Assembly: GCF_947487805.1 (NCBI RefSeq)
Contig: NZ_CANKXW010000001.1
Location: 62,001 to 126,000, forward strand
Direction: 5' to 3'
Source of the DNA: an uncultured Tateyamaria sp.
Lineage (GTDB): Bacteria > Pseudomonadota > Alphaproteobacteria > Rhodobacterales > Rhodobacteraceae
DNA length: 64,000 bases
Shown: in pieces, positions 24,504 to 43,298 of the stretch
How positions within the stretch are numbered: position 1 is the stretch's first letter
Layout of the letters: each line of letters begins with the position of its first letter
Position numbers and translations under genes: made by a program
Notes under the pieces: model-generated
Told to the model about the DNA's origin: nothing
Seen by the model: only the letters and a program-made list of their open reading frames with translations
The model's database searches: none

Positions 24504-25588
24504 CTAAAATCGCTGCAATCGAAACGCGCCTGTTTCACATCCCGCTGGCCGAAGTTCTGGTGGATGCCAAGCATGGCGACCACCATTTCTTTGAACTGAT
24601 CACCGCGACAATCCGGCTGGAGGATGGCAGCCAAGGCACCGGCTACACCTATACCGGAGGCAAGGGCGGGCACGCGATCCAGGCGATGATTGCGCATGAC
24701 CTCGCGCCCTTTCTGACGGGCCAGGATGCCGAACAGGTCGAGGCACTCTATGAGGCGATGCAATGGCATGTGCACTACGTCGCCCGCGGCGGCATCGCGT
24801 CGTTCGCGATCTCGGCGGTGGATATCGCCCTTTGGGATTTGCGCGGCAAACGCAAAGGCCTGCCGCTGTGGCAGATGGCCGGAGGCGCCGACACGGAATG
24901 CAAGGCGTATTGCGGGGGGATTGATCTGGGTTTCGAGCTGCCAAAGCTCCTGAACTCCGTCCAAGGGTATCTGGATCGTGGCTTCAACGGGGTAAAGATC
25001 AAGGTCGGACGCGACGACGACGTGGCCCGTGTCACCGCCGTGCGCAAGCTGATCGGGCCGGACACGGCCTTTATGGTGGACGCGAATTATTCCATGGGTG
25101 TTGATCAGGCGATCAAAGCCGCCCGCGCGTTTATGGACCATGATATCCTCTGGTTCGAAGAACCCATCATTCCCGACAACTACGCCGGTTATGCCCGGAT
25201 CGTGGACGCAACCGGATGCCCGCTGGCCATGGGCGAGAATCTGCATACGATCCACGAGTTCGAATATGCCTTCGATCAATCAAGGCTAAGCTTTATTCAG
25301 CCGGACGGATCGAATTGCGGCGGGATCACGGGGTTCCTGCAAGTGGCCGAACTGTCCGAAAAACACGGCGTGCCGATTTGCAGTCACGGAATGCAGGAAC
25401 TGCATGTCAGCCTCGTGTCGGCCCGGAACAACGCGGGCTGGATCGAAGTCCACTCTTTCCCGATTGACGAATACACGATGCGGCCCTTGCAGGTGCGCGA
25501 TCACATGGCCCAAGCGCCCTCCGAACCGGGGATCGGCGTTGCATTCGACTGGGCGAAACTGGACGCCGCAAATCTCCTCTCGAACTGA
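24500..25588 (+). CDS. Enolase-superfamily (mandelate racemase subgroup) sugar-acid dehydratase or racemase
   Basis: 362 residues. The barrel carries the expected catalytic set: Lys166-x-Lys168 (VKIKVG), metal ligands Asp194, Glu220 and Glu246, and the Asp269/His296 dyad (QPDGS and CSHGM). These identify a mandelate racemase-type enzyme that abstracts the alpha proton of a carboxylate; with sugar transport and dehydrogenases around it, dehydration of an aldonate to a 2-keto-3-deoxy acid is the likely reaction. Substrate chirality cannot be told. Start chosen at ATG 24500, which overlaps the permease stop. Confidence 0.88.
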
Positions 25589-40872: not shown

Positions 40873-41814
40873 ATGAAAGCGCCCTCGACCCAAAACAGAC
40901 CCGGCACCGCCATCAGCCTCAAGCTGTTGGCGGTGTTTTTGTTCATGGTGATGGCCGCGATGATCAAGGCCGCCACACAGAACGTGCCCGCCGGTCAGGC
41001 GGTGTTCTTCCGGTCGTTCTTTGCCATGCCGATCATCCTCGCCTGGATCTGGCAGCGGGGCGAAATGCGCGAGGCCCTCGTGCCGGTGAACCTGACGGGC
41101 CACATCTGGCGCGGGCTGTTCGGAACGTCGGCCATGGCGCTCACCTTTGGCGGGCTGGCCCTGCTGCCACTGCCCGAGGTGACGGCCATCGGCTACGCCA
41201 CGCCGATCTTCACCGTGATCCTCGCGGCCCTCATGCTGGGCGAACGCGTGCGCATCTTTCGTATCACCGCCGTTGGCCTTGGCCTTGTCGGGGTGATGAT
41301 CGTCCTCTGGCCGCGCCTCTCCATCGGTACGGATGCCCTCAGCACGGCCGCAGGGCTCGGTGCGGTCATGGTGCTGGGCGCGTCGCTCTTGCGCGCAGTG
41401 GTCCAGATCCACATCCGCACACTGGTCAAGACCGAACACACCGCCGCCATCGTCTTCTATTTCTCGCTGACCGCGACCGTCCTCAGCCTGATCAGCATCC
41501 CCTTTGGCTGGGTCGTGCCCTCCACTTTGGATGCGGGCCTGCTGATCGGTGCCGGGTTGGTGGGCGGTGTGGCGCAGATCCTCGTCACGGCCAGCTACCG
41601 CTTTGGCGCGGCTTCCATGCTGGCCCCGTTCGACTACGCTTCGCTGATCTTTGCCGCGCTGATCGGCTACGTGATCTTTGCCGAACTGCCCACGACACCC
41701 ACAGTGATCGGCGCGTCACTGGTGGTGCTGGGCGGCGTCCTCATCATCTGGCGCGAACGCCAGCTGGGCGGTGGCCGCAACCGCGCGCGGGCCGTGACCG
41801 ATCCCAAGGGCTAA
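40873..41814 (+). CDS. EamA/DMT-family transporter
   Basis: 313 residues, ten predicted membrane segments in two EamA repeats (AVFLFMVMAAMIKAATQNVP at residue 17; second repeat from about residue 160). Drug/metabolite transporters export amino acids, metabolites or act as S-adenosylmethionine importers; substrate cannot be told. Preceded by GGGGGAC. May be coregulated with the DM13 gene through the TetR protein. Confidence 0.85.
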   Translation: MKAPSTQNRPGTAISLKLLAVFLFMVMAAMIKAATQNVPAGQAVFFRSFFAMPIILAWIWQRGEMREALVPVNLTGHIWRGLFGTSAMALTFGGLALLPLPEVTAIGYATPIFTVILAALMLGERVRIFRITAVGLGLVGVMIVLWPRLSIGTDALSTAAGLGAVMVLGASLLRAVVQIHIRTLVKTEHTAAIVFYFSLTATVLSLISIPFGWVVPSTLDAGLLIGAGLVGGVAQILVTASYRFGAASMLAPFDYASLIFAALIGYVIFAELPTTPTVIGASLVVLGGVLIIWRERQLGGGRNRARAVTDPKG

Positions 41815-42028
41815 AACTGCGAAATTAAATTTTCTAGTTGTCAGCACTATATTTTGGTGCGTTCTTTTTTCGTTCTCACCGATTGTGGGCAAATCTATTT
41901 CGTTAAAGGAAAATGTTAAGGCTTGTCAATGGCCTGAATGAAAATTTTGTTGTCGTTTGCGGTAACATGTGTAAATCTTCTTTTCAATATGATGTAGCTG
42001 CCCACTATATTGATCGGGGGATCAACCA

Positions 42029-42160
42029 ATGAAGGAAGAATGCCCAGTCTGCCGCCTGCGCCGTGAGCAAAGAGAAAACAATGTGATGCTGCTGACCGCC
42101 CTTGCGGCAGTCGCCACGACAATTGGCGTCGTGGTCGCTTTGATCAACCAGCTAAGTTGA
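42029..42160 (+). CDS. 43-residue membrane microprotein with N-terminal CxxC
   Basis: Begins MKEECPVCRLRREQRENN and continues as a single hydrophobic segment at residues 19-40 (MLLTALAAVATTIGVVVALI) ending NQLS. GGGGGATCAACC precedes the ATG. It ends 7 bases before the next gene, so the two are probably cotranscribed. The 214 bases upstream (41815-42028) are AT-rich compared with the neighbourhood and hold no other gene. I do not recognise a family. The CPVCR motif could bind a metal or form a disulfide; basic residues next to it favour a cytoplasmic N-terminus. Confidence 0.6.
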   Translation: MKEECPVCRLRREQRENNVMLLTALAAVATTIGVVVALINQLS

Positions 42161-42167
42161 GGTCCAA

Positions 42168-42950
42168 ATGACACCCTCAATCAACAACGCACCCCAGCAC
42201 GCTGAGGCAAAAGCGACGCGGTTCATTGATATCGTCGCCGCCTATGGCAAAGATCGAAAGATGACACAGCGCTCTATCGCGGTTGAGTTGGGGTGCAGTC
42301 CATCAACGCTGTCCTTGGTGGGCAGCGGCGCGCGCAAATTGTCTGACGCGATGGCGACAAAGCTGTCTTTGTTGTTCGGCGGGAGCCCCGACAACTGGAA
42401 GGATATTCATCGTCAGACGCAATCCGGCAGCAAGCACCCCGTTGCCTATTTTCGCGCGATCCTGAATGAATACTCAACGCTCGAGGACCTGCCCGGCGCG
42501 CGGGTCAGACGGTTGCGCCGCGAGCATATCCTTGAGTTCATGCAGGCCAGCCCAAATAGCGGGCTCCAACGCGAAACGCTGTCAATAGACGGCTTTGCCG
42601 AAGAACGCCTGAGGGTGACCAGCTATGACACAGCATTCGGGTCTTTTTTCAGTGAGGACACGGGAAAGGACGAAGAGATCAACGGAACGTTCGTCATCCC
42701 GGCAGGTCGGAGCATTTTGATGACGACTAAAGAGGCCGTAACCATGCCAATGTGGATGGAAGCCGATGTGCACCCCGCAACGAGCCTTGCGCGAAAGCAC
42801 TTGATCGTGTCCGGAGGCCCGATCATTGACCCCGGATTTGACGATTTCTTGGTGGCGTCTGTCTTCAACCCAACGCGGGATCCGATCGAGGTTAACTCGA
42901 ATGATACGTTCCTGACCTTGCGGTTTTGGCTGCACGAGCTGGATCGCTAA
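42168..42950 (+). CDS. HigA-like HTH protein fused to a degenerate dCTP deaminase/dUTPase-like domain
   Basis: 260 residues. Residues 32-82 form a HigA/XRE-type helix-turn-helix (SIAVELGCSPSTLSLVGSG, then LSLLFGGSPDNWKDI). Residues 172-258 align by eye with the core of dCTP deaminase: IPAGRSILMTTKEAVTMP, ATSLARKHLIVSGG, IIDPGFDDFLVASVFNP, and NDTFLTLRFWLHEL. In the enzyme the nucleotide-binding RSS(x)xR reads ATSLAR here and the catalytic Glu of LEFYN reads Ser, so activity is unlikely. A nucleotide-sensing regulator is the simplest idea. Probably cotranscribed with the 43-residue membrane protein upstream. Confidence 0.75.
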   Translation: MTPSINNAPQHAEAKATRFIDIVAAYGKDRKMTQRSIAVELGCSPSTLSLVGSGARKLSDAMATKLSLLFGGSPDNWKDIHRQTQSGSKHPVAYFRAILNEYSTLEDLPGARVRRLRREHILEFMQASPNSGLQRETLSIDGFAEERLRVTSYDTAFGSFFSEDTGKDEEINGTFVIPAGRSILMTTKEAVTMPMWMEADVHPATSLARKHLIVSGGPIIDPGFDDFLVASVFNPTRDPIEVNSNDTFLTLRFWLHELDR

Positions 42951-42956
42951 CAGCAA

Positions 42957-43298
42957 TCAGGGCTTGTGACAGGCGGACGCCTCGATCACCAGACCGTCCG
43001 GGCCAAAGCGCAAGGTCTCAGCCGCCAGCACATCGCGCTGGTTGCGATAGGTGATCACCAGCATCCCATGCCCATGCAACACGTCCACCACGACAAAGGA
43101 CAGATCCGGCTGCCCCTCCAGCGCGCGTGCCCAATAGGTGCGCAGCGCCGCCTTGCCGCGCAGCTCTCCTGTCCCCACAAGCCGCATCGCCTTGTGCGAA
43201 CGGAACACGATGTCTTCGCTGTAATGTGCCAGAATGCGGTCAAGGTCATGGGAGTTCCAGCCGGCCTCCCACGCCTCTGCAAAGGCCTCGAAATCCAA
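42957..43298 (-). CDS. SnoaL-like (NTF2-fold) protein
   Basis: 113 residues starting MDFEAFAEAWEAGWNSHDLDRILAHY, the standard opening of SnoaL-like polyketide-cyclase-fold proteins; the ending SACHKP fits too. Such small alpha+beta barrels bind diverse ligands and no catalytic claim can be made. It begins 3 bases after the ilvE stop on the same strand and converges with the HTH gene, 6 bases apart. Function unknown. Confidence 0.8.
   Translation of the reverse strand: MDFEAFAEAWEAGWNSHDLDRILAHYSEDIVFRSHKAMRLVGTGELRGKAALRTYWARALEGQPDLSFVVVDVLHGHGMLVITYRNQRDVLAAETLRFGPDGLVIEASACHKP

Follow-up and report, generated by a model that had tools for sequence, protein, structure and literature searches.

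A 64,000-nucleotide stretch of the genome of an uncultured Tateyamaria sp. (contig NZ_CANKXW010000001.1; "the window" below) carries an inserted two-gene cassette. The first gene (42029 to 42160, + strand) encodes a 43-amino-acid single-span membrane microprotein, and the second (42168 to 42950, + strand), which starts 7 bases downstream, encodes a 260-amino-acid protein in which a helix-turn-helix (HTH) domain is predicted to be fused to a degenerate dCTP deaminase (DCD) fold. Both open reading frames (ORFs) begin with ATG and stand as given in a preliminary description of this DNA. We propose, with about even confidence, that the cassette is a mobile module with a toxin-antitoxin layout, in which a membrane effector is paired with an HTH repressor or antitoxin that carries a pseudo-DCD sensor.

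The second gene encodes an HTH-DCD fusion

The HTH of the 260-amino-acid protein (residues ~19 to 84) matched the NCBIfam HigA family (TIGR02607) at 4.5e-6, under that family's cut-off, and Pfam HTH_3 at 3.6e-4, slightly under the cut-off (20.9 versus 23 bits). HTH_3 matched the homologue in a relative, G615, over the cut-off (2.6e-12). The remainder of the protein matched Pfam DCD (5e-9) and dUTPase (8.3e-5), each over its cut-off. The match to TIGR02274 (2.6e-12) was under the equivalog cut-off, as expected if the protein is a nonenzyme. A predicted structure confirmed the DCD fold and widened its span to residues 114 to 260 (147 residues); the preliminary description had recognized the fold correctly and placed it too narrowly, at residues 165 to 260. 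A Pfam scan to E 10 returned DCD, dUTPase, and HTH families only and no Panacea (DUF4065) domain. By domain matches and structure prediction, the protein is an HTH fused to a DCD fold, and its HTH is HigA-like, as first described.

A single-sequence search found 15 proteins at an E value of ≤0.001 from 797 candidates, and an alignment-based search found 28 at ≤1e-10 from 4713. Besides the record of the window protein itself and two shorter sequences of 162 and 165 amino acids, the 28 include 25 proteins of 250 to 284 amino acids, and these 25 align across both the HTH and DCD domains; the architecture is thus fixed. One homologue carries the source name "deoxycytidine triphosphate deaminase/plasmid maintenance system antidote protein VapI." Twenty-seven full-length members formed the alignment used for residue counts below. 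The distribution of the HTH-DCD cassette is patchy. Elsewhere in the window genome, two DCD-model matches fell in one 385-amino-acid frame and a third, weaker one fell in a 188-amino-acid frame, none over the cut-off; we infer that the 385-amino-acid two-domain protein is probably the housekeeping dCTP deaminase of this genome.

The cassette is a mobile-type insertion

None of the 19 congeners searched at the protein level (E value of ≤1e-6) has the HTH-DCD gene. In the congener G401, the flanks of the cassette are ~95% identical to those in the window, and the two bordering genes, which encode an EamA-type transporter (left, 40873 to 41814, + strand) and a SnoaL-like protein (right, 42957 to 43298, − strand), neither of them part of the cassette, meet with zero bases between the matches. 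The extra DNA in the window is therefore 41815 to 42960 (1146 bp). The SnoaL-like protein ends in CHKP in both genomes and the transporter gene ends in TAA at the junction, indicating that neither neighbor was damaged. At 52.5%, the GC content of the insert is below that of the window (62.6%), and every one of 629 segments of equal length (100-base steps) was higher, as anticipated from the earlier remark on an AT-richer gap. That the site is cleanly empty in a congener of near-identical sequence supports a mobile-type insertion, which is the part of the earlier proposal of a "mobile or defence-type insertion" that these data uphold.

Junctions were compared in 17 of the 19 congeners, leaving out G399, where SnoaL had no match, and G397, which is divided between two contigs. 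Eight had ≤7 bases between the flanking genes, and G410 had 71. A PhoD-like gene occupied the junction in three (G394, G403, and G411) and an APP1-type phosphatase gene in three others (G402, G408, and G409), with identity assigned by Pfam on one of each (G394 and G409). The junction of G404 holds 402 bp with no intact large gene, and that of G407 holds 546 bp up to ilvE, with no SnoaL match. These varied contents mark the site as a permissive slot, one open to cargo of different kinds: the tail-to-tail EamA/SnoaL-like junction (window 41814/42961; loci L052 to L068) holds PhoD, an APP1-type phosphatase, the cassette, or nothing.

A single-span ORF precedes the HTH-DCD gene in both close contexts

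The window microprotein has a charged, CPVC-containing N terminus and one hydrophobic segment, with a best 19-residue Kyte-Doolittle mean (KD19) of 2.5, in keeping with its initial description as a single-span protein. Genome searches near the window covered overlapping sets of 394, 390, 385, 398, 33, and 301 genomes. A full-length profile matched in 344 of the 394; nearly all of these were, among the matches listed, HTH-only and were set aside as generic Xre proteins, and DCD-domain-only profiles were used in its place. These searches yielded a single further close relative whose context is known, G615. It belongs to the same bacterial family, and its HTH-DCD protein is 35% identical to that of the window over the whole protein. 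Directly upstream lies a 40-amino-acid ORF that overlaps the HTH-DCD start by 11 bases, has GGAGG 6 bases before its ATG, and encodes a basic N terminus and a single hydrophobic segment (KD19 of 2.08). Among 33 genomes of the G615 genus, only G615 had a close match; another, G1383, has a distant match in which a DCD domain is joined to a transmembrane (TM) segment. Layout and topology therefore recur in G615, as the claimed coupling of a small single-span gene to the fusion gene would have it; sequence and the CxxC motif do not. Coupling of two genes of which the second carries an HTH is a trait of type II (HigBA-like) toxin-antitoxin systems, and here it takes the form of a 7-bp gap in the window and an 11-bp overlap in G615.

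As a control, we examined maximal ORFs of 30 to 60 amino acids abutting a gene of at least 200 amino acids in 400 kb of each of two genomes; in the like-for-like version, all starts within the first 60 codons of the large gene were allowed. At a KD19 of ≥2.0, such an ORF preceded 0 of 273 and 1 of 270 genes (1/543), versus 2 of 2 close contexts. With first ATG starts only, the counts at this threshold were 0/273 and 0/270.

An AT-rich leader (41815 to 42028, + strand; 214 bp, 36.9% GC) precedes the microprotein gene and presumably holds the promoter and operator; a search of its + strand found no sigma-70-type match. A perfect inverted repeat, TTGATC-GGGG-GATCAA (42010 to 42025), overlaps the Shine-Dalgarno-like GGGGGA of the microprotein. 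A second exact TTGATC-N4-GATCAA occurs at window positions 25101 to 25116, within a gene that by eye is enolase-superfamily-like; the two matches in the window compare with 0.01 expected, and another 400 kb of the genome contains none.

The best-surviving alternative, unlikely though a serious contender in our view, is that the HTH-DCD protein works alone, as a horizontally transferred regulator that responds to nucleotides or as an orphan antitoxin, and that the 43-amino-acid ORF is not its functional partner. Several observations speak for it or otherwise weigh against a two-gene module. The only match to the microprotein among 5.8 billion proteins at an E value of ≤1 was itself. It has no detectable similarity to the G615 ORF, which also lacks CxxC, so that this motif, proposed earlier as the defining feature of the microprotein, had to be abandoned. 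No small TM ORF lies upstream of the divergent HTH-DCD gene of G269 on the same strand. The control depends on the KD19 threshold, which was chosen after both cases had been seen: at ≥1.6 the like-for-like counts were 0/273 and 5/270, and in a looser control with nested ATGs, which admits the C-terminal ends of longer upstream ORFs, 6/224 and 7/263 genes reached ≥2.0. The homologue database carries no genomic context, and the context of the close family comes from two genomes, the window and G615. The inverted repeat, at best a weak operator candidate, was rejected as such when 60% of 200 leader shuffles reached the same arm length. PADLOC, run on the window's own proteins, gave only a weak HTH_VI match (E value of 0.008). 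Against a stand-alone regulator stand the tight coupling of a single-span ORF in both close contexts, compared with 1 of 543 control genes, and the ribosome-binding-like sequences ahead of both small ORFs.

The deaminase site is lost in the whole family

In an alignment to the B. halodurans enzyme 4xjc, GRSSVGR is replaced by PATSLAR and TLELFN by VASVFN, which bears out the changes first noted by eye (Glu to Ser, RSS to ATS). The column of the catalytic Glu, which we take to be E138 in E. coli numbering, holds Ser in 16, Thr in 5, Ala in 4, Asn in 1, and Arg in 1 of the 27 members; the window has Ser, and Glu is kept in none. The first Arg of the RSS motif is replaced by Ala in 25, Pro in 1, and Thr in 1, and the second Arg is variable. 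Only 3 to 18 residues follow the final RFW in any member; hence, the C-terminal lid of the enzymes is absent. Other positions are strongly kept: Y153 (27), D154 (26), G217 (27), P218 (26), D221 (26), and N234 (27), as well as E189, E198, T250, and R252 (27 each). Judged from the alignment, such a pattern is that of a pseudoenzyme under constraint.

The case that deaminase activity has been lost is strong, and the loss of the site is decisive for deamination only. The case for loss of dUTP hydrolysis is weaker, because 8y1w and 9ln0, the closest solved homologues by sequence, also lack the Glu (both have Met) and yet are titled dUTPase (with dCTP deaminase as the molecule name) and because D154 and D221, presumably the Asp residues of dUTPase motifs I and III, are each kept in 26 of 27 members. 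The label "catalytically degenerate" given at the outset thus holds firmly for deamination and less so for dUTP hydrolysis. The same two facts are what favors a second alternative, that the DCD domain lacks only the deaminase step and is still a dUTPase-like pyrophosphatase, with the state of the repressor tracking substrate turnover. We consider this improbable: the phosphate-binding motif II Arg is Ala in 25 of 27 members, the Arg115 equivalent varies, and no member has the C-terminal arm (we assign the Arg and the arm to dUTPase motifs II and V).

Phage, plasmid, and defence searches

Against 50,697 phage records, the 260-amino-acid protein had no match at an E value of ≤1e-5. For its homologue P0010, four phage records (two of them copies of a single virus) gave matches, all weak and to the DCD domain, and plasmids gave none. 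The one plasmid match of the 260-amino-acid protein was weak (Rhizobium, 27% identity over 47%). Scanning viral contigs twice with a few short patterns confirmed nothing, and neither did two scans of genome contigs. PADLOC on the G615 homologue returned HTH_VI (1.2e-12), capH (7.8e-9), and restriction-modification control proteins, all over the HTH alone, so by sequence this HTH resembles regulators of defence systems. The family profile also matched the HTH of Stl (Orf20) in the PDB (E value of 7.7e-5), and Stl repressors are switched by phage dUTPases, according to PMC4231751 and PMC6695447. That link would fit a phage satellite or prophage fragment with a Stl-like master repressor, its DCD domain a receptor for a phage signal, plus a leftover ORF, an origin we likewise consider improbable, since the 1146-bp insert has room for these two genes only and no integrase and since the phage-record and viral-contig searches above gave only the weak P0010 matches.

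Distant pseudo-DCD proteins often carry a membrane segment

Twenty further DCD-like proteins were examined, found with dead-domain profiles (E cut-offs of 1e-3 to 1e-8), apart from the hand-picked G126 and G267. None of the 20 keeps the Glu, partly by construction, since ordinary enzymes score lower with such profiles. On the basis of their length and of where the match fell, 19 were judged to lack an HTH; three of them (G302, G1383, and G625) were scanned with Pfam. In 18 of these 19, the exception being G968, a TM-like segment lies C-terminal to the DCD core (KD19 of 1.59 to 2.57), a trait that was not selected for and is read from the hydropathy mean alone, without a control for these proteins. 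This suggests that pseudo-DCD domains are often membrane coupled, in cis or in trans.

The pseudo-DCD-TM form recurs at L088:3144-4415 (G302), with similar genes in L090, L091, L092, L098, L099, and L005. In G302, G480, G126, G1009, and G1122 it is preceded by a gene for a protein of ~160 to 250 amino acids; a Pfam scan of the G302 partner found no family above the cut-off. These recurrent pairs are possibly a separate membrane-effector system. At L118:2290-4636 (G1383), L007 (G267), and L100 (G1058), an adenylosuccinate-synthetase-like gene, Pfam confirmed in G1383 only, precedes a pseudo-DCD gene with a TM-like segment; the next ORF in G1058 has a P-loop and by eye is possibly nucleoside-kinase-like. 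At L084:3503-4933 (G625), a P-loop gene, weakly guanylate-kinase-like (below the cut-off), abuts a pseudo-DCD gene with C-terminal hydrophobic segments. At L093:5858-6598 (G167), a pseudo-DCD-TM gene lies just downstream of a 450-amino-acid ORF that by eye resembles part of a type II restriction-modification/methylase protein. A distant DCD-like hypothetical protein is encoded at L101:5956-6690 on the Rhizobium leguminosarum plasmid NZ_CP007047.1; two genes upstream, the other strand has an annotated uracil-DNA glycosylase gene.

Proposed mechanism

In the two-gene module that we favor, the gene order would be that of HigBA, with the effector gene first and the HTH antitoxin or repressor gene second. 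The small single-span protein would be a toxic effector, with the inner membrane as its most likely site of action. The HTH-pseudoDCD protein would bind DNA and repress its own operon, restrain the effector, or both. Its pseudo-DCD domain may act as a sensor that binds a (deoxy)nucleotide or a phage nucleotide-metabolism protein; such a ligand would be the trigger that shifts the state of the protein and releases the effector, potentially in defence against phage. By analogy, each half has a separate precedent: PanA paired with membrane-depolarizing toxins (PMC8832971) and Stl (PMC4231751, PMC6695447).

More tentatively, and well short of even confidence, the cassette may belong to a new class of nucleotide-gated toxin-antitoxin or defence modules, in which a membrane effector is released when a dead dCTP deaminase domain senses either a nucleotide enzyme of a phage or a disturbance of the deoxynucleoside triphosphate (dNTP) pool, the effector being encoded in trans (HTH-pseudoDCD with microprotein) or in cis (the distant pseudoDCD-TM proteins). 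Should the pseudo-DCD domain prove to be a nucleotide sensor, toxin-antitoxin control would be tied directly to the pool of dNTPs, which is remodeled by phages, and this would suggest a reason for the recurrence of Glu-less DCD domains with membrane segments. The small size of the family and its single fixed architecture make the idea directly testable on one pair.

Comparison with known systems

The cassette resembles HigBA and other systems with HigA-type antitoxins (TIGR02607) in having a small gene closely followed by a HigA-like HTH gene and in being mobile and patchy. It differs in that its first product is a single-span peptide rather than a HigB RNase (sequence searches of Pfam, PHROGs, NCBIfam, and PADLOC gave no toxin-family match, HigB/RelE included) and in that its HTH protein carries a 147-residue DCD fold. 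PMC8832971 describes the PanA antitoxin domain as promiscuous, sometimes with an N-terminal HTH, and some PanAT pairs as containing small membrane-depolarizing TM toxins. The cassette would be like PanAT in pairing an HTH protein with a small membrane effector; its second domain is a pseudo-dCTP deaminase rather than Panacea.

With the bifunctional and monofunctional dCTP deaminases and dUTPases (4xjc, 2qlp, 1xs1, and 8y1w), the protein shares the fold and the core motifs SYD and IDPG; unlike them, it lacks the RSS Arg, the C-terminal lid, and the deaminase Glu (absent also in 8y1w) and has an HTH in front. Defence dCTP deaminases and dGTPases, which deplete nucleotides, act as enzymes. The cassette resembles these systems in placing a DCD fold in a mobile accessory gene and differs in lacking the deaminase residues. 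The DefensePredictor paper lists dUTPase among the domains of predicted, unvalidated defence systems (PMC13092281). As in the Stl repressor of SaPIbov1, an HTH repressor would be tied to a dUTPase fold as signal; Stl, however, binds a separate phage dUTPase, while here the related fold sits within the repressor-like protein itself. No description of an HTH-pseudoDCD regulator or system was found in open-licence papers, most of them represented by listings with the start of the abstract. The cassette fits a known kind, small modules under HTH regulation, to which its proposed sensor domain would be new.
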